This document shows positions 7,528 to 47,894 of a stretch of DNA of 58,678 bases, piece by piece (the first letter of the stretch is position 1; the number at the start of each line of letters is the position of its first letter). Source of the stretch: Candidatus Omnitrophota bacterium. Its GTDB lineage: Bacteria > Omnitrophota > Gorgyraeia > Gygaellales > Profunditerraquicolaceae. Under the pieces are notes generated by a model. That model saw nothing but the letters and a program-made list of their open reading frames with translations, was not told the origin of the DNA and searched no databases. A program made the translations under genes and the position numbers. Location: NCBI GenBank assembly GCA_026387435.1, contig JAPLLS010000046.1:1-58678 (forward strand). The letters are read 5' to 3'.

Positions 7528-7549
7528 CCAAATAACCGATACCGACCGA

Positions 7550-7589
7550 TACAACCTCGTAGGTTGTACTTTGTACAACCTACGAGGTT
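7550..7589. repeat. Palindromic intergenic repeat, inverted double copy
   Basis: A 9-bp stem (TACAACCT / AGGTTGTA around a CGT loop) is followed after TTT by its inverted copy, so bases 7553-7569 pair perfectly with 7573-7589 (17 bp, 3-nt loop). The same palindrome occurs at 20218-20238 before oppD. It fills most of the 153-bp gap between secDF and mfd. No T-run follows, so it does not look like a terminator. Confidence 0.8.
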
Positions 7590-10421: not shown

Positions 10422-11375
10422 ATGAATTTGAGAGACGTACACATAGGCATAACTATGGGCGATCCTTCGGGGATCGGCCCGGAGATCTGCGTTCAGGCAA
10501 CCCGGGCACTTGGCGGGAAATTTAAGCTGGTTATTATCGGAGATCTGGGGGTTTGGAGAAAAGTCGCAAGTCACAAGTCACATGTCACATGTGAATTTGT
10601 TGATCTTAAGAATGTTGATCTTAAACGATTTAATTTCGGCCAAGTGAATGCCGAATACGGAAGAGCTTCCATGGAGTATCTGGACAAGGCCATGGAGCTT
10701 CTTCGTAAGCGTCAGATAGACTGCATTGTCACGGCCCCGATTTCTAAAGAGTCGATCAATCTGGCCGGCTTTCATTATTCCGGCCACACCGAATATTTCG
10801 CGGAGAAAACCAGATCCAAAAATGTGGTAATGATGCTGGTCAATAAGGAATTGAAATTTTGCCTGGTTACCCGGCACATCCCTTTAAAAGAGGTAGCCGT
10901 GAAATTGAACCGGGCCAAGATCACCAACACTATCACGGTTTGCCGCAAGGCCTTAACGGAGTTTTTTGCGCTCCAAGATCCGCGCCTGGTTGTTTGCGGG
11001 ATAAATCCTCATGGTTCGGATAACGGTTTGATCGGCAGAGAAGAGAACCAAATCATCCGTCCGGCACTTCAAGCTTTGAAAAAAAAGTTTAAACACCTGG
11101 ACGGGCCTCTGGGAGCTGATGTGGCCATAGGTAAAGCTAAAAACAATCTCTATGACTGCGTTATCGCCATGTACCACGACCAGGCTTTGATCCCTTTAAA
11201 GCTTTTGGGTGATGAAACCGGGATCAACATGACCCTCGGGCTGGGTTTTGTCCGGACTTCTCCTTTACACGGCACAGCTTTTGACATCGCCGGGAAGAAT
11301 ATTGCCAGCCCCGCATCTTTAATCGCTGCAATTAAATTAGCCGCTCAATGCACACTAAACCAAAAAAAAGCTTAG
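10422..11375 (+). CDS. pdxA: 4-hydroxythreonine-4-phosphate dehydrogenase
   Basis: A 317-residue enzyme of the DXP-dependent pyridoxal phosphate pathway. Landmarks are ITMGDPSGIGPEI, VTAPISKESINLAGFHYSGHTE (metal-binding His), CGINPHGSDNG, GPLGADVA and AMYHDQALIPLK. A short tandem-repeat block (10563-10630) changes a surface segment near residues 48-70. The start follows the SurA-like gene by 1 bp, and the 3' end overlaps rsmA by 28 bp, an arrangement (pdxA next to ksgA) also known in E. coli. Confidence 0.96.
   Translation: MNLRDVHIGITMGDPSGIGPEICVQATRALGGKFKLVIIGDLGVWRKVASHKSHVTCEFVDLKNVDLKRFNFGQVNAEYGRASMEYLDKAMELLRKRQIDCIVTAPISKESINLAGFHYSGHTEYFAEKTRSKNVVMMLVNKELKFCLVTRHIPLKEVAVKLNRAKITNTITVCRKALTEFFALQDPRLVVCGINPHGSDNGLIGREENQIIRPALQALKKKFKHLDGPLGADVAIGKAKNNLYDCVIAMYHDQALIPLKLLGDETGINMTLGLGFVRTSPLHGTAFDIAGKNIASPASLIAAIKLAAQCTLNQKKA
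10563..10630. repeat. Tandem GTCACAN heptamers and a 15-nt duplication inside pdxA
   Basis: Four heptamers in a row (GTCGCAA, GTCACAA, GTCACAT, GTCACAT at 10563-10590) are followed by two copies of TGTTGATCTTAA 15 nt apart. They encode the low-complexity peptide VASHKSHVTCEF and two VDLK units. The same heptamer is found in the argG-argH gap at 29491-29511. Confidence 0.7.
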
Positions 11376-14111: not shown

Positions 14112-14223
14112 GCGTATTTCGTCCTCGGCTAACATTCGCGGATTTTGTTGAAATCCGCTCATGCCTCGGACTAAATTCGGCCCAATGACTTATGTTCGTT
14201 ATCGCTTCGCAAGTTGTGGCTAA
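14112..14223 (+). repeat. Two-hairpin intergenic element, copy A
   Basis: First of two head-to-tail copies filling the 310-bp gap between the ABC ATPase and pgk. Layout: CGTCCTCGG, then hairpin 1 (GCGGATTT / AAATCCGC), CCTCGGACTAAATTCGGCCC, then hairpin 2, which is degraded in this copy (GACTTATG ... CAAGTTGTGGC). The sequence is shared with copies at 14226, 21788, 22917 (inverted) and 34850. Confidence 0.8.
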
Positions 14224-14225
14224 GT

Positions 14226-14340
14226 ATCCGTCCTCGGTAACATTCGCAAATTTCGTTAAAATTTGCTCATACCTCGGACTAAATTCGGCCCAATAACTTA
14301 TGTCGCACTACGTGCTCCATAAGTTATGGCCTCATTTAAA
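14226..14340 (+). repeat. Two-hairpin intergenic element, copy B
   Basis: Complete copy. Hairpin 1 has stem GCAAATTT / AAATTTGC: two bases on each side differ from copy A and still pair. Hairpin 2 (14287-14331) pairs ATAACTTATG with CATAAGTTAT, with an inner GCAC/GTGC stem and outer GGCC/GGCC and AAAT/ATTT pairs. It ends 6 bp before the -35 box of pgk. Confidence 0.85.
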
Positions 14341-14403: not shown

Positions 14404-15585
14404 ATGGCCAAATTGACCGTAAAAGACCTGGATTTGAAAAATAAGACTGTTTTGATGCGCGCGGACTTCAATGTTCCTTTGGATGGGGAGTTCAATATCA
14501 CTGATGATACCCGGATCAGGGAAACTTTACCTACGATTCAGTATATTCTCAAGAACGGCGCCAAAAATCTGGTTTTGATGAGCCATTTAGGCCGGCCGGA
14601 CGGCAAGAGAGTGGATAAATACAGCCTTAAACCAGTAGCCAAGAAACTGGCGGATCTGCTGGGAGAAAAGATAAATTTCCTCAGTGATTGCGTAGGTCCG
14701 GAGGTCAAAGCTGCGGTTGATTCTTCCCAGGATAGGGTTATTCTCCTGGAAAACCTCAGGTATCATGCCGAAGAAGAGGGCAATGACGAGAATTTCGCCA
14801 AGCAGCTGGCTTCTTTAGGCGAATTATTCGTTAACGACGCTTTCGGCACCGCGCACCGGGCTCATGCTTCCACAGCCGGAGTGGATAAATTCCTCAAATC
14901 CGCTGCGGGATTCCTGCTGGAAAAGGAAATAAAATACCTGGGAGACGCGGTCAGCAATCCCCAAAAGCCTTTTATGGTTATCCTCGGCGGCGCCAAGGTT
15001 TCGGATAAGATCGGCGTTATCGAGAATTTACTGCCTAAATGCGAAACGATCATTATAGGCGGGGGAATGGCCTATACTTTTTTAAAGGCCCAGGGTAAAT
15101 CAATCGGAAATTCCAAATTGGAGAAAGATAAGCTCGACTTGGCTAAGACTATCTTAGATAAAGCAGCAGCCATGAAAAAAGAGATCCTTTTGCCCATCGA
15201 CCATGTGGTTGTGGAAACAGTCGATCCCAATGCCAAGTCAGAGATAGTCGGCGAGCAGATACCAGAAGGCAAGATCGCCGTGGATATCGGCCCGAAAACC
15301 ATCGCTTTGTTCAATGCCAAGCTTCAATCCGCAAAGACTGTGGTCTGGAACGGACCGCTGGGAATATTCGAGATGGATGCTTTCAGCAAGGGGACTTTAG
15401 AAGTAGGGAAATGTTTGGCTGGATTAAAAGCAGTTACTATTATCGGCGGAGGCGATACTGCCGCCGCTGTAGCCAAGTTCAAATTACAGGATAAAATGAC
15501 CCATATTTCCACGGGCGGCGGAGCGAGCCTGGAGTTCTTAGAGGGGAAGACCTTGCCCGGGATCGCGGCGTTAACCGACAGATAA
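14404..15585 (+). CDS. pgk: Phosphoglycerate kinase
   Basis: A 393-residue glycolytic kinase that makes ATP from 1,3-bisphosphoglycerate. The N-terminal substrate-binding RADFNVPLD, the SHLGRPDG motif, the ENLRYHAEEEGND loop, the LGGAKVSDKIGV nucleotide-domain motif and the C-terminal GGGDTAAAV / HISTGGGASLEFLEG are all intact. It is followed after 10 bp by tpiA, forming a glycolytic pair; gapA is not in the window. Confidence 0.98.
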   Translation: MAKLTVKDLDLKNKTVLMRADFNVPLDGEFNITDDTRIRETLPTIQYILKNGAKNLVLMSHLGRPDGKRVDKYSLKPVAKKLADLLGEKINFLSDCVGPEVKAAVDSSQDRVILLENLRYHAEEEGNDENFAKQLASLGELFVNDAFGTAHRAHASTAGVDKFLKSAAGFLLEKEIKYLGDAVSNPQKPFMVILGGAKVSDKIGVIENLLPKCETIIIGGGMAYTFLKAQGKSIGNSKLEKDKLDLAKTILDKAAAMKKEILLPIDHVVVETVDPNAKSEIVGEQIPEGKIAVDIGPKTIALFNAKLQSAKTVVWNGPLGIFEMDAFSKGTLEVGKCLAGLKAVTIIGGGDTAAAVAKFKLQDKMTHISTGGGASLEFLEGKTLPGIAALTDR

Positions 15586-15595
15586 GGACACGTTA

Positions 15596-16375
15596 ATGAG
15601 AAAACCTATTATTGCGGGCAATTGGAAGATGTATAAGACCATCGGTCCGGCTATTGAGCTGGCTAACGGCTTAAAAAGGGAATTTTATAAAATCGAACCT
15701 GCGGACATTGACATTGTGCTTTGTCCGGTTTATACTTGTTTGAGCGAAGTAGCCGAGGTGATCGCCAATTCCAATATCGCCTTGGGCGCACAGGACGTTT
15801 ACTGGCAGGATGAAGGCGCGTTTACCGGTGAAGTCTCGGCGCCCATGCTTAAGGATGCCGGCTGCACTTACGTGATCATCGGCCATTCCGAGCGCCGGCA
15901 GTTCTTCGCAGAGACAAATGATACGGTTAATAAAAAAATAAAAGCGGCCTTAAAACACGGGCTTTTGCCGATAGTCTGCGTGGGCGAATCCCTGGCGGAA
16001 AGAGAAGCCAACAAAACTTTTGACGTTTTGACCGGCCATGTGCAAAACGGACTTGTTGGTCTGACCGCAGAAGAAGTTGCCAGGATCGTCATTGCTTATG
16101 AGCCGGTCTGGGCTATCGGGACCGGGAAAACCGCGACCTCCGCCCAGGCTCAGGAAGCGCATAAATATATCAGGGACCTTTTGGTCAAGTTTTACAATAA
16201 AGAGCTTGCCGCAGGTGTAAGGATCCAATACGGTGGCAGTGTTAAACCGGAAAACATCGAAGAAATAATGGCTCAGCCGGACGTTGACGGAGCTTTGGTC
16301 GGCGGGGCAAGCCTTAAAATCGAATCTTTTTCCGAAATCATAAAGCGCGGTTTGAAAGTTAAGGTGAAAAAATGA
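15596..16375 (+). CDS. tpiA: Triosephosphate isomerase
   Basis: A 259-residue TIM barrel that interconverts dihydroxyacetone phosphate and glyceraldehyde 3-phosphate. Catalytic residues are visible: Lys11 in GNWKMYK, the His in IIGHSERRQFF, and the Glu in AYEPVWAIGTGKTA. The phosphate loop QYGGSVKPEN and VGGASL are normal. It overlaps secG by 4 bp, a common pgk-tpiA-secG arrangement. Confidence 0.98.
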   Translation: MRKPIIAGNWKMYKTIGPAIELANGLKREFYKIEPADIDIVLCPVYTCLSEVAEVIANSNIALGAQDVYWQDEGAFTGEVSAPMLKDAGCTYVIIGHSERRQFFAETNDTVNKKIKAALKHGLLPIVCVGESLAEREANKTFDVLTGHVQNGLVGLTAEEVARIVIAYEPVWAIGTGKTATSAQAQEAHKYIRDLLVKFYNKELAAGVRIQYGGSVKPENIEEIMAQPDVDGALVGGASLKIESFSEIIKRGLKVKVKK

Positions 16376-20199: not shown

Positions 20200-20238
20200 A
20201 CCAGTACAACCTAACCAGTACAACCTCGTAGGTTGTAC
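20200..20238. repeat. GTACAACCT palindrome between oppC and oppD
   Basis: Bases 20218-20238 form a palindrome (GTACAACCT, loop CGT, AGGTTGTAC), the same as at 7550-7569. A half copy (CCAGTACAACCT) lies just before it in direct orientation. It interrupts an otherwise tight operon 10 bp before the oppD ATG and could act as a processing or attenuation site. Confidence 0.8.
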
Positions 20239-20248
20239 TAAGGGTTAT

Positions 20249-21043: not shown

Positions 21044-21789
21044 TCCTGGAAGCCAGAGATATCAGTAAGGAATTCAAGATAGAGCAAGGGATGTTTAAGA
21101 GTGAAGCGGGAAGAACCCTGGCCCTGGATAAGGTAAGTTTTGTTCTGGATGAATTCACCACCCTGGGGGTCGTGGGGGAATCGGGTTCGGGTAAAACAAC
21201 TTTGGCCAAGATTTTATTGGGACTGGTTCCAGCAAGCTCCGGGGAAATTGTTTTTAATGATAAGTTCATCAAAGATTTCCGCAAAGACGTCCAGATAATC
21301 TTCCAGAATCCTTATAACAGCCTGGATCCGAAGATGCGCATCAAAGACGCCCTTTATGAGCCGCTTTTGATACACAACATCTTGCCGCGGCGATCATTCC
21401 GGCTCAAGGCGACAGAATTGCTTAACCGGGTTGGGCTGGATGAGAGCGCTTTGGAAAGATACCCCGTTCAGTTTTCCGGCGGCCAGCGCCAGAGGATCTG
21501 TATTGCCCGGGCCATTGCCTGTGAACCGAAGCTTCTGGTTCTGGATGAGCCGATCTCATCTTTGGACTTGACCATCCAGGCTAAACTGCTGGAGCTCTTT
21601 TTGGAACTCAAACGTGAATTCAATCTTACCTATATATTTATCAGCCATAACCTGTGCGTAATCAAATATATTGCCGACAAAGTTATGGTCATGCACCAGG
21701 GCCGGGTAATAGAAGAGGCCAGCTCGTCGGAGATCTTCGCCAGCCCCAGCCAGGAATACACCCGCGAGCTGCTGGAAGCGGCCAAGTAG
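21040..21789 (+). CDS. Oligopeptide ABC transporter ATPase, OppF/DppF type
   Basis: A 249-residue ATPase: Walker [11 protein letters not shown]-loop IFQNPYNSLDPKMRI, signature FSGGQRQRICIARA, Walker B LLVLDEPISSLDLT, switch His in ISHNLCV. It pairs with the preceding OppD-like ATPase to power the importer, and like it has only a minimal C-terminal extension. It ends the operon, followed by a copy of the two-hairpin element. Confidence 0.93.
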   Translation: MILEARDISKEFKIEQGMFKSEAGRTLALDKVSFVLDEFTTLGVVGESGSGKTTLAKILLGLVPASSGEIVFNDKFIKDFRKDVQIIFQNPYNSLDPKMRIKDALYEPLLIHNILPRRSFRLKATELLNRVGLDESALERYPVQFSGGQRQRICIARAIACEPKLLVLDEPISSLDLTIQAKLLELFLELKREFNLTYIFISHNLCVIKYIADKVMVMHQGRVIEEASSSEIFASPSQEYTRELLEAAK

Positions 21790-21956
21790 CGTATCTCGTC
21801 CTCGGTAACATTCGATGAGTCGATGATCTTCCCCTCGCATGGCGTTTGCAAATTCCTACGGGAATTTGCTCACACGCTCGGGGTAAATTCGCACATATGA
21901 GTTAATGTCGCTTAGCGTATTTGGTAGCGGGCTCCATAACTCATGTGCTCATTTAA
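21788..21956 (+). repeat. Two-hairpin intergenic element, copy C (long form)
   Basis: Same start (CGTCCTCGG-type CTCGTCCTCGG) and end (GCTCATTT) as copies A and B, but with extra sequence in both hairpins. Hairpin 1 is GCAAATTCC / GGAATTTGC. Hairpin 2 pairs ATGAGTTA with TAACTCAT and has an enlarged tip (GCTTAGCGTATTTGGTAGC). Every stem differs from copy B in sequence but still pairs. It lies between oppF and rplM and is the inverted partner of copy D. Confidence 0.8.
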
Positions 21957-22914: not shown

Positions 22915-22916
22915 TT

Positions 22917-23058
22917 AAATGAGCGCATAAGTTGTGGAGCCAGCTACCAAATACGCTAAGCGACATCAACTTATCCGCGCGAATTTATCCCGAGGCTGTG
23001 AGCGGATTCCAGAGAATCCGCGAACGAATTGCCGAGGGAGCAATACGCTACCCGAGGA
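22917..23058 (-). repeat. Two-hairpin intergenic element, copy D (long form, inverted)
   Basis: Read on the - strand it is the same element: CCTCGG, hairpin 1 (GCGGATTC / GAATCCGC), GCCTCGGGATAAATTCGCGC, then hairpin 2 (ATAAGTTG / CAACTTAT) with the same long tip as copy C (GCTTAGCGTATTTGGTAGC), and GCTCATTT. Copies C and D thus flank rplM-rpsI as inverted repeats. Confidence 0.8.
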
Positions 23059-29486: not shown

Positions 29487-29490
29487 CAGA

Positions 29491-29518
29491 GTCACACGTC
29501 ACATGTCACAAGTGATAC
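29491..29518. repeat. GTCACAN heptamer repeat between argG and argH
   Basis: Three perfect heptamers (GTCACAC, GTCACAT, GTCACAA at 29491-29511) followed by a degenerate unit (GTGATAC). The same unit is tandemly repeated inside pdxA at 10563. Confidence 0.7.
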
Positions 29519-30932: not shown

Positions 30933-32177
30933 ATGCATGAATTCAAGTTTAAGAACAACTTACTTTACTGCGAAGATGTTCAGGTCCGCGATCTGGTCAA
31001 GAAGTATAATACCCCGTTGTATGTTTACTCCTACAATACTTTTATCGGCCATTTCCTGAAGTTAAAGGCGGCTTTTCAACAGGTTAACCCTTTGATCTGT
31101 TATTCCGTCAAAGCTAATTCCAATCTGGCTATCCTTAAAGCTTTGGTGGCTCGTGGCGCGGGGCTGGATATCGTTTCCGGCGGTGAATTGTTCCGCGCCA
31201 TCCGCGCCGGATGCGACCCGGCTAAGATCGTTTACGCTTCCGTCGGAAAGACCGATGTCGAGATAGAAGAGGCGATCCGCAAGGGTATAAAGTTTTTTAA
31301 CGTGGAGTCCCTGCCGGAACTGGAGAATATTAACCGCATCGCCGGGCGATTGCGCAAGATCACCAATGTGGCGATCAGGATAAATCCCGATGTCGCTCCC
31401 AAGACCCATCATTATATCACTACGGGTAAGCTGACTAATAAGTTCGGCATTGATTTCGCTACTGCCCGGAAAGTGCTTTTATTAGGCAGGAAATTGCGCA
31501 ACGTTAATATCAGCGGCATCCATATTCATATCGGTTCACAGATCACTGACGGCGCTCCTTTTTTGGAGGCGATCAAGAAAGTTATCGCTTTTATTTCCCA
31601 GCTTAAGCTCAAAGGAGTTAATATCGAGTACTTGAATATCGGCGGGGGCTTAGGAATAATTTATCAAAACGAAAAGCCTCAGACCGCAGATGAGTTTGCC
31701 CGGAAAGTTTTGCCCGTGTTAAAGGACAGCGGTTTAAAGATCATTATGGAGCCGGGCAGGTTTATTATCGGTTCAGCCGCGATCCTGGCGGTGAAAGTCC
31801 TTTACATCAAGAAGACTCCGCTCAAGAATTTTATGATCGTTGACGCGGGAATGAATGATCTTATCCGTCCCGCGCTGTATGACGCGCATCATGAGATCGT
31901 CCCGCTAAAAACACCTTCATCAAAAAAGACGATGAAAGTAGATGTGGTCGGCCCGATATGCGAAAGCGGGGATTTTTTGGCCAAGGCCCGGAATCTGCCG
32001 GTAACCAAAGAGGGGGATTTTCTGGCGGTAATGTGCACCGGAGCGTACGGCTTCAGCATGGCCAGTAATTATAATTCCCGCAGACGTCCGGCGGAAGTAT
32101 TAATAAAAGGCGATCAGGTAAAGCTGATCCGCAAGAGGGAAAGTCAGGAAGACCTGATCCGTAACGAGATTTGGTAA
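30933..32177 (+). CDS. lysA: Diaminopimelate decarboxylase
   Basis: A 414-residue fold-III PLP enzyme converting meso-diaminopimelate to lysine. The Schiff-base Lys60 is in CYSVKANSN. The PLP phosphate site GGGLGI, MEPGRFIIG, and the C-terminal GPICESGDFLAK and TGAYGFSMASNYNSRRRPAEVLI are conserved. First gene of the lysine block, which is interrupted after it by an AT-rich gap. Confidence 0.96.
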   Translation: MHEFKFKNNLLYCEDVQVRDLVKKYNTPLYVYSYNTFIGHFLKLKAAFQQVNPLICYSVKANSNLAILKALVARGAGLDIVSGGELFRAIRAGCDPAKIVYASVGKTDVEIEEAIRKGIKFFNVESLPELENINRIAGRLRKITNVAIRINPDVAPKTHHYITTGKLTNKFGIDFATARKVLLLGRKLRNVNISGIHIHIGSQITDGAPFLEAIKKVIAFISQLKLKGVNIEYLNIGGGLGIIYQNEKPQTADEFARKVLPVLKDSGLKIIMEPGRFIIGSAAILAVKVLYIKKTPLKNFMIVDAGMNDLIRPALYDAHHEIVPLKTPSSKKTMKVDVVGPICESGDFLAKARNLPVTKEGDFLAVMCTGAYGFSMASNYNSRRRPAEVLIKGDQVKLIRKRESQEDLIRNEIW

Positions 32178-32364
32178 GTAAGTCTGAGTAAATAGAAGTA
32201 AGTTTAAGTAATAATATTATAGAATATAATATAAAATAGTAAAAAAATTATAAATATAGATAAATAAGTAAGTAGTTAGAATTGAAATAATAGAATATAG
32301 AGAGATAAATGAGTAATAAGCGAGTAATATTAAGTAGGTTTAAGTAAAACGGAGTAAGTTTATA
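32178..32364. repeat. AT-rich spacer with dispersed AGTAAGTTTA repeats
   Basis: A 187-bp gap, far richer in A+T than its surroundings, between lysA and dapF. It contains repeated AGTAAGTTTA-like decamers near both ends (AGTAAGTTTAAGTAA at about 32197; TAAGTAGGTTTAAGTAA at 32331; GGAGTAAGTTTATA at 32351). The same decamer is perfectly tandem at 47713-47732. No gene, terminator or clear promoter was recognised in it. Confidence 0.65.
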
Positions 32365-34849: not shown

Positions 34850-34962
34850 TTCGTCCTCGGCAGACATTCGCGGATTTCATTAAAATCCGCTCATGCCACG
34901 GACTAAATTCGGCCCAATAACTTATGTCGCACTTCGTGCTCCATAAGTTATGGCCTCATTTA
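34850..34962 (+). repeat. Two-hairpin intergenic element, copy E
   Basis: Fills the 134-bp gap between dapB and the M42 peptidase gene. Hairpin 1 is GCGGATTT / AAATCCGC (as copy A); hairpin 2 (34912-34954) is almost identical to copy B (ATAACTTATG / CATAAGTTAT with a GCAC/GTGC tip). It ends directly before the AAGGGGGAG ribosome binding site of the next gene. Confidence 0.85.
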
Positions 34963-47602: not shown

Positions 47603-47894
47603 TTCTAATTTACCTTTTATTAGTCCGCTGTTTTAAATAATCTTTCCTGATTTATGTTTGTTAATCCCCTAATAATTCCTTTCAAGTCCGCTTAAGCTTT
47701 TAACCAAGCTTGAGTAAGTTTAAGTAAGTTTATTATAATTTAAATATGTTTATATTAAAAAAAGTAAAATAAAAGTGTATTTTATAAGTATAATGTGATT
47801 TAATTAAGATTTTTATAAAAAATACTTGACAAAATATATCTTTTATGATTTAATTAACATTAAGCTAATTGGTAATGAAATAGGGAAGGATAGA
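47603..47894. other. AT-rich intergenic region with decamer repeat and promoter
   Basis: A 292-bp gap of very high A+T. It holds a perfect tandem of AGTAAGTTTA (47713-47732), the repeat also seen at 32178-32364. Near its end a candidate promoter occurs: TTGACA (47826-47831), a 17-bp spacer, TTTAAT (47849-47854). A long-frame start at 47826 runs through the promoter and is not credible. No RNA gene was recognised. Confidence 0.6.

Follow-up and report, generated by a model that had tools for sequence, protein, structure and literature searches.

The window, a stretch of 58,678 nt that makes up contig 129 of the Omnitrophota genome G000 (1.78 Mb, 136 contigs), contains five copies of a repeat built from two hairpins. 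The five copies had been proposed in the original prediction, and a covariance model (R1) recovered all of them at the expected places; a second model (R2) describes hairpin 2 alone. Two copies lie in tandem between an ABC transporter gene and the PGK gene. The first (14121–14226, + strand, R1 83 bits) is a type-1 copy in which hairpin 1 is followed by a decayed hairpin 2 without its base (R2 14 bits). The second (14230–14338, + strand, R1 125 bits) is a complete two-hairpin type-1 unit upstream of PGK, which folds with z = -7.8 as DNA and -8.4 as RNA of the - strand. Its hairpin 2 (14280–14338, + strand, R2 74.7 bits, E 4e-21) is the conserved terminal hairpin of the family and ends in CTCATTTA. 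Between an ABC transporter gene and rplM (L13)-rpsI (S9), the copy originally placed at 21788 was found to be a composite, in which a complete type-2 unit (21831–21955, + strand, R1 83.5 bits; hairpin 2 at 21884–21955, R2 55.6 bits) interrupts a type-1 hairpin 1 after its 5' half (21790–21810, + strand, CGTCCTCGGTAACATTCG). Directly after the rpsI terminator lies an inverted copy of mixed type-2/type-1 sequence (22916–23039, - strand, R1 88.7 bits; hairpin 2 at 22916–22987, R2 47.5 bits). The fifth copy, of type 1, lies between dapB and an M42 peptidase gene (34853–34962, + strand, R1 129 bits; hairpin 2 at 34904–34962, R2 75 bits).

All copies were outside genes, as predicted. They were not all between operons, as had also been claimed: the right end of the copy at 34853–34962 abuts the Shine-Dalgarno sequence AGGGGGAG of the next gene, in the order CTCATTTA-AGGGGGAGTT-ATG. 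Further, the copies were of two types. Type 1 has the motif CCTCGGACTAAATTCGGCCC, and the type-2 or mixed copies at 21831 and 22916 have CTCGGGGTAAATTCGCAC and CCTCGGGATAAATTCGCGC. Type-2 units inside broken type-1 units were also found at L018, L023, L028 and L049, and this nesting suggests insertion. In the window, the interval between the PGK stop codon and the start of the next gene (15583–15596, + strand) is an empty site, at which a relative (L162) has an element in the orthologous comparison.

Other repeats were noted in the window. The short palindromic repeat TACAACCTCGTAGGTTGTA, with inverted arms, occurs twice (7545–7589 and 20214–20242), as does a AGTCACAAGTCACATGTCACATGTGA-like stretch (10569–10594 and 29490–29515). 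An A/T-rich TAAGTAAGTYTGAGTAA-like stretch occurs at three places (32175–32206, 32331–32362 and 47701–47732).

Copy number and folding of the repeat

A 17-base pattern yielded about 25 real copies of the two types in G000, from which R1 was built. The original prediction had proposed a covariance-model search of the genome and its relatives; this search detected 31 strong copies at unrelated sites in G000 (E 6e-28 to 4e-15) and matches in 45 of 58 relatives, with up to 59 copies. The mean identity of 17 aligned type-1 copies was 86%. R2 matched 191 of the 285 Omnitrophota genomes sampled, representing 152 of 224 genera; hairpin 2 is thus the constant part of the family and hairpin 1 the variable part. 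When a pattern was scanned across all genome contigs, at least 111 stretches were found, and among the matches listed nearly all had Omnitrophota titles. No match to the element was detected in the viral contigs and plasmids searched.

G000 is a metagenome bin, the relatives are titled MAGs, and the copies in the window are only about 110 nt long, as would be the case for chance palindromes or an assembly artefact. We regard this explanation as negligible, given the E-values in G000, the independent recovery in 191 genomes and the presence of the family in the one-contig genome G129. No Rfam family reached its gathering threshold (the best weak match scored 17.8 bits against the 48 needed), and no earlier description of the element was found in the non-subscription literature searched. 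These results agree with the initial statement that no described family with such a layout was known.

The stems share a regular design. Hairpin 1 reads GTCC-TC-GGY...AT-TC-GCGGATTT/AAATCCGC-TC-AT-RCC-TC-GGAC and is closed by an outer stem, GTCC-TC-GG(Y)/(R)CC-TC-GGAC, that had previously been missed. Hairpin 2 follows directly and reads TAAAT-TC-GGCC(CA)ATAACTTATG-TC-GCAC TTC GTGC-TC-CATAAGTTATGGCC-TC-ATTTA. TC/TC internal loops, which read GA/GA on the other strand, interrupt all of the long stems. At L018, L025 and L017, some copies have lost this mismatch: TC on one arm has become GA, so that the loop is fully paired, as though that arm had been templated by the other.

Both strands of complete type-1 copies folded far better than shuffled sequence (z about -8). 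The compensatory stem changes of the original prediction were borne out in the 25 G000 copies: 95.5% of paired cells were standard pairs (85.0% when shuffled), 20 of 40 pairs had changed on both sides, and the covariation score was 0.312 compared with 0.131 for shuffled sequence. The outer stems also covaried, as GTCC/GGAC, CTCC/GGAG, TCCC/GGGA and GCCC/GGGC. Among 56 hairpin-2 sequences from across the phylum, 94.2% of cells were paired (78.6% when shuffled), and double-changed cells numbered 205 as against 66. Most of these sequences were retrieved with a pattern fixing AATTCG, CTTAYG and TCCRTAAG, so that the constancy of those columns arises by construction; the covariation sits in other columns. 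The 25 G000 copies had 19 G-T and 13 A-C cells. Of the 1064 cells in the 56 hairpins, 1023 were Watson-Crick, 9 were G-T and 16 were A-C; in this phylum-wide set there was almost no wobble and no strand signature of RNA, which fits a DNA hairpin or the copying of one arm from the other.

The complete element and its nuclease gene

In many copies, a second, inverted hairpin 2 lies upstream of hairpin 1, and the full short form is therefore hp2'-hp1-hp2. In relatives, the complete element consists of an inverted hairpin 2, a hairpin-1 arm, a GIY-YIG gene, a second hairpin-1 arm and hairpin 2, and measures about 330–430 bp. Neither the inverted second hairpin nor the nuclease gene had been part of the original prediction. 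The left terminus reads T N A A T G A G followed by the inverted hairpin 2, and the right terminus is hairpin 2 followed by C T C A T T N A. Complementarity runs exactly two bases past CTCATT and so defines the terminus CTCATTNA. We rejected a guide-sequence model as in IS200/IS605, in which internal bases pair with the flank, because these two bases of complementarity are the base of the hairpin. On the left, the element ends at the stop codon of the gene upstream or overlaps it. The right end lies at a Shine-Dalgarno sequence or start codon, at the antisense stop codon of a neighbour or at the 3' end of a tRNA. Of 110 copies, 31 had a Shine-Dalgarno-like sequence no more than 10 nt from the right terminus, compared with 18.6 expected (maximum 28).

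A long copy between pyrB and pyrC (L140) was recognized when orthologous loci were compared; the loop of its hairpin 1 holds a degenerate GIY-YIG reading frame. Intact versions were present at L155 and L118 (Pfam PF01541, E 6e-11). The element-borne protein is about 76–82 aa, and homologues of the L155 protein were detected in 56 of the 285 Omnitrophota genomes. In an alignment of 19 proteins, the Y-G, R, H and R-E positions were kept, and the GIY-YIG fold is assigned from these residues together with the PF01541 match. Purifying selection acts on the gene: pN was lower than pS in 105 of 105 pairs, and the closest pair had a dN/dS of 0.06.

R2 detected inverted hairpin-2 pairs around GIY-YIG genes at L255, L277, L284, L287, L290–L294, L302 and L307, and weaker or one-sided flanks at L285, L286, L288, L289 and L256. 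Most of the closest homologues of the element protein sit within hairpin pairs, the start codon lying directly 3' of the hairpin-1 arm. Further, the arm families of gene-less copies (CCCAGCACTAATTTT, CCCCACACC, CCCTTGACAT and CCCCACACCCAG) equal those that flank the gene. One genome, G227, had six GIY-YIG matches and 125 hairpin-2 hairpins. No element-type GIY-YIG gene was detected in G000 at E 1e-5, and the copies in that genome would thus be relics or have been moved by a lost or trans-acting enzyme.

Other GIY-YIG genes outside elements in the same genomes, including L252 in G000, were not flanked by hairpins. The top Pfam GIY-YIG matches were likewise discarded as element genes: they were unflanked and belonged to other GIY-YIG subfamilies, and only homologues of the element-borne gene were flanked. 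At L257, L295, L296, L300 and L304 (around 1501–1750), GIY-YIG genes lie in inverted CCCCGCACCTT arms without hairpin 2, near gene starts such as that of an nrdR-like gene; these loci perhaps represent a sister element type.

Empty sites, target duplications and modes of movement

We compared G227 with G294, a genome of the same genus with 26 hairpin-2 matches; the comparison took in nearly all of the G294 genome and most of the element regions of G227. At 28 of 32 alignable G227 sites, the G294 site was empty or nearly so, with no more than 42 nt between the flanks. At three of these sites the spacers were 271–298 nt, the size of the nuclease gene, and two of the three were GIY-YIG matches. 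The flanks overlapped by at least 4 nt at 10 of these sites, as in CCAAGGGGGGT<element>AGGGGGGTAGGA compared with CCAAGGAGGCTAGGA. The duplication score for 30 inverted pairs of G227 was 2.93, as against 0.97 (maximum 1.68) when the flanks were shuffled 200 times, although target duplications were clear in only 9 of the 30. The duplicated sequences included AGGAGGT, ACCTCCT, CCTCCT, AGAAAAG, AGGAAGTC and AGGGGGGT. For 46 other elements from across the phylum the signal was weaker (1.16 compared with 0.59, maximum 1.01), as expected if these insertions are older and the redundant left copy has been decaying. In part of the insertions, a duplication of 4–8 nt falls at the Shine-Dalgarno sequence (AGGAGGT or ACCTCCT), and the ribosome-binding site of the downstream gene is thereby restored. 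Mobility of the element is well supported.

These results bear on the suggestion that the repeat is a transcription-end or processing signal or a small RNA, or more generally a structured RNA or cis-regulatory element, such as a leader hairpin or a stability signal at ribosome-binding sites, that functions at the level of RNA. The strong covariation would suit such a role, as would the stable tandem-GA loops on the - strand and the many right ends that meet a Shine-Dalgarno sequence or start codon in the sense direction (among co-directional neighbours, 52 were sense and 23 antisense). However, substitutions in the stems preserve Watson-Crick pairing, and G-U is almost absent from either strand. 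Copies lie in both orientations and also at tRNA 3' ends, and their sites are empty in sister species. Further, the functions of neighbouring genes are unrelated, and the full element has inverted symmetry and a nuclease gene of its own. We therefore consider an RNA-level function improbable.

The original prediction also proposed a REP/MITE-like element moved by a transposase in trans. The REP/MITE-like character was upheld, but not the RAYT/IS200-like transposase. REP/REPIN elements moved by RAYT, a Y1 tyrosine transposase, are similarly palindromic, intergenic, multicopy and arranged in inverted pairs, and G000 has three Y1_Tnp genes. The consensus of the type-1 and hairpin-2 alignments (A1 and A3), however, lacks GTAG. 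None of 33 Y1 loci had an element beside the gene, the nearest being one weak R2 match (E 0.0018) about 1.5 kb away at L192. Several genomes with 20–59 copies had no Y1 gene (PF01797), among them genomes with 59, 40, 35 and 25 copies, the 59-copy genome being 98% complete, and a genome without copies had seven Y1 genes. Co-occurrence and the lack of linkage thus refute a RAYT/IS200 product, unless its Y1 family is too divergent for PF01797, and we assign this explanation only a very small probability.

Two observations were made beside the Y1 genes themselves. One Y1 transposase gene of G000 (L029, 1300–2100) is ringed by its own short repeats of the GGAAAGTGTTTCC type, a candidate RAYT-REP pair unrelated to the hairpin family, and a sequence that by eye resembles a c-di-GMP riboswitch lies upstream of a Y1-domain gene (L030, around 1200–1350). 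Two further classes were rejected. The RYYYAAC/GTTRRRY core of integron attC sites was absent by eye from the hairpin-2 alignment A3, and the neighbours were housekeeping genes, not an array of promoterless cassettes; a DDE-MITE with simple terminal repeats was ruled out on sequence.

A more serious alternative is that the hairpins are mobile but are moved by another recombinase, their loops having been colonized by an independent, selfish GIY-YIG nuclease gene. Element-type GIY-YIG genes are missing from copy-rich genomes such as G000, and GIY-YIG genes also occur in the hairpin-1-like CCCCGCACCTT arms without hairpin 2, so that the gene could be a guest of the hairpins. Duplications of 6–8 nt, moreover, resemble the staggers of transposases. 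GIY-YIG enzymes usually leave 2-nt overhangs, which do not directly explain duplications of this length. Against this alternative, the nearest GIY-YIG homologues, drawn from many families and genera, mostly occupy the same central position right after the hairpin-1 arm, the arms around the gene match those of short copies, and the presence of Y1_Tnp, the only class of transposase tested, does not follow that of the element. We consider movement by another recombinase unlikely, though clearly less so than the RNA and RAYT explanations.

Proposed mechanism and comparison with known systems

We conclude, with a probability of roughly 0.7, that the repeats in the window derive from a hairpin-ended mobile element of Omnitrophota that encodes a GIY-YIG nuclease, and are themselves non-autonomous and MITE/REPIN-like. 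The short copies share their ends with the coding element, since hairpin-2 pairs and identical hairpin-1 arms flank GIY-YIG genes; orthologous sites are empty and target sites are duplicated, the duplication being weak outside G227. Judged from its cis-linkage, its position, the shared arms and the selection on its sequence, the GIY-YIG protein probably carries out the movement.

In the proposed mechanism, the hairpins would be extruded as cruciforms or form on single-stranded DNA, and would be recognized by the nuclease together with their TC/TC (or GA/GA) internal loops. The nuclease would then make staggered cuts at the element ends and at a Shine-Dalgarno-like target (AGGAGGT or ACCTCCT). 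Repair of the staggered cut would produce the 4–8-nt duplication and keep a working Shine-Dalgarno sequence before the downstream gene. On this reading, loss of the GIY-YIG gene from the complete element gives rise to hp2'-hp1-hp2, and further loss to the hp1-hp2 units of G000.

Somewhat more tentatively, we favour the existence of a minimal class of transposon, of about 330–430 bp with TC/TC hairpin ends, which would use a nuclease of ~80 aa as its sole mobility protein, target Shine-Dalgarno sequences with a gene-sparing duplication and be the source of non-autonomous hairpin swarms throughout the phylum. Mobile palindromic elements as such are a known kind; should the nuclease turn out to drive the movement, this class would be new. 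The enzymes known to move bacterial DNA elements are DDE, HUH/Y1, tyrosine and serine recombinases and reverse transcriptases. A multicopy element with a GIY-YIG enzyme as its sole protein would be a new way of moving DNA, and possibly a very small tool. Insertion at, and regeneration of, the Shine-Dalgarno sequence would offer dense genomes an elegant safe-site strategy and, if the proposal is true, a large share of the intergenic DNA in this widespread phylum of uncultured bacteria would be explained.

Several known systems resemble the element in part. Double-hairpin elements of fungal mitochondria also consist of two adjacent hairpins, are intergenic and are thought to be mobile; compared by description only, they differ in genome and in sequence. 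Bacterial MITEs derived from DDE elements are likewise deletion derivatives that share inverted ends with an autonomous parent and have target-site duplications. The parent in the present case, however, encodes a GIY-YIG nuclease instead of a DDE transposase, and its ends are hairpins rather than simple terminal repeats. UPF0213/YhbQ-like proteins (PDB 1zg2 and 1ywl) have the same compact GIY-YIG domain (phmmer E 0.0014), but nuclease genes outside elements are not flanked by hairpins. Free-standing GIY-YIG homing genes, such as the Seg genes of phage T4, whose mobile DNA has been reviewed (PMC2988022), are similar in that a lone GIY-YIG gene spreads between intergenic places. Homing, in contrast, concerns one allelic site, whereas the present element occupies tens of unrelated sites per genome, has hairpin ends and has gene-less derivatives.

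REP/REPIN elements with RAYT are also short, palindromic, multicopy and extragenic, often form inverted pairs and have conserved stem mismatches. The Omnitrophota repeat differs from them in lacking the GTAG tag and a link to Y1, and in its longer, compound hairpins with TC/TC loops. Further, REPs lie mainly downstream of genes and between convergent genes (PMC3733652), whereas this repeat lies at Shine-Dalgarno/start and stop sites of co-directional genes. The CGTC REPs (Di Nocera et al., 2013; PMC3733652), which have an unpaired CGTC tag, a single 8–9-bp stem, a 4–5-nt loop and a CCA tail, are likewise palindromes without a known transposase, and the copies in the window begin with CGTCCTCGG. 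However, CGTC occurs here in one type only and its GTC is base-paired, the stems are compound with TC/TC loops, and hairpin 2 ends in CTCATTNA. For palindromic repeat families without a known enzyme, the CGTC REPs among them, the element described here offers a concrete model.
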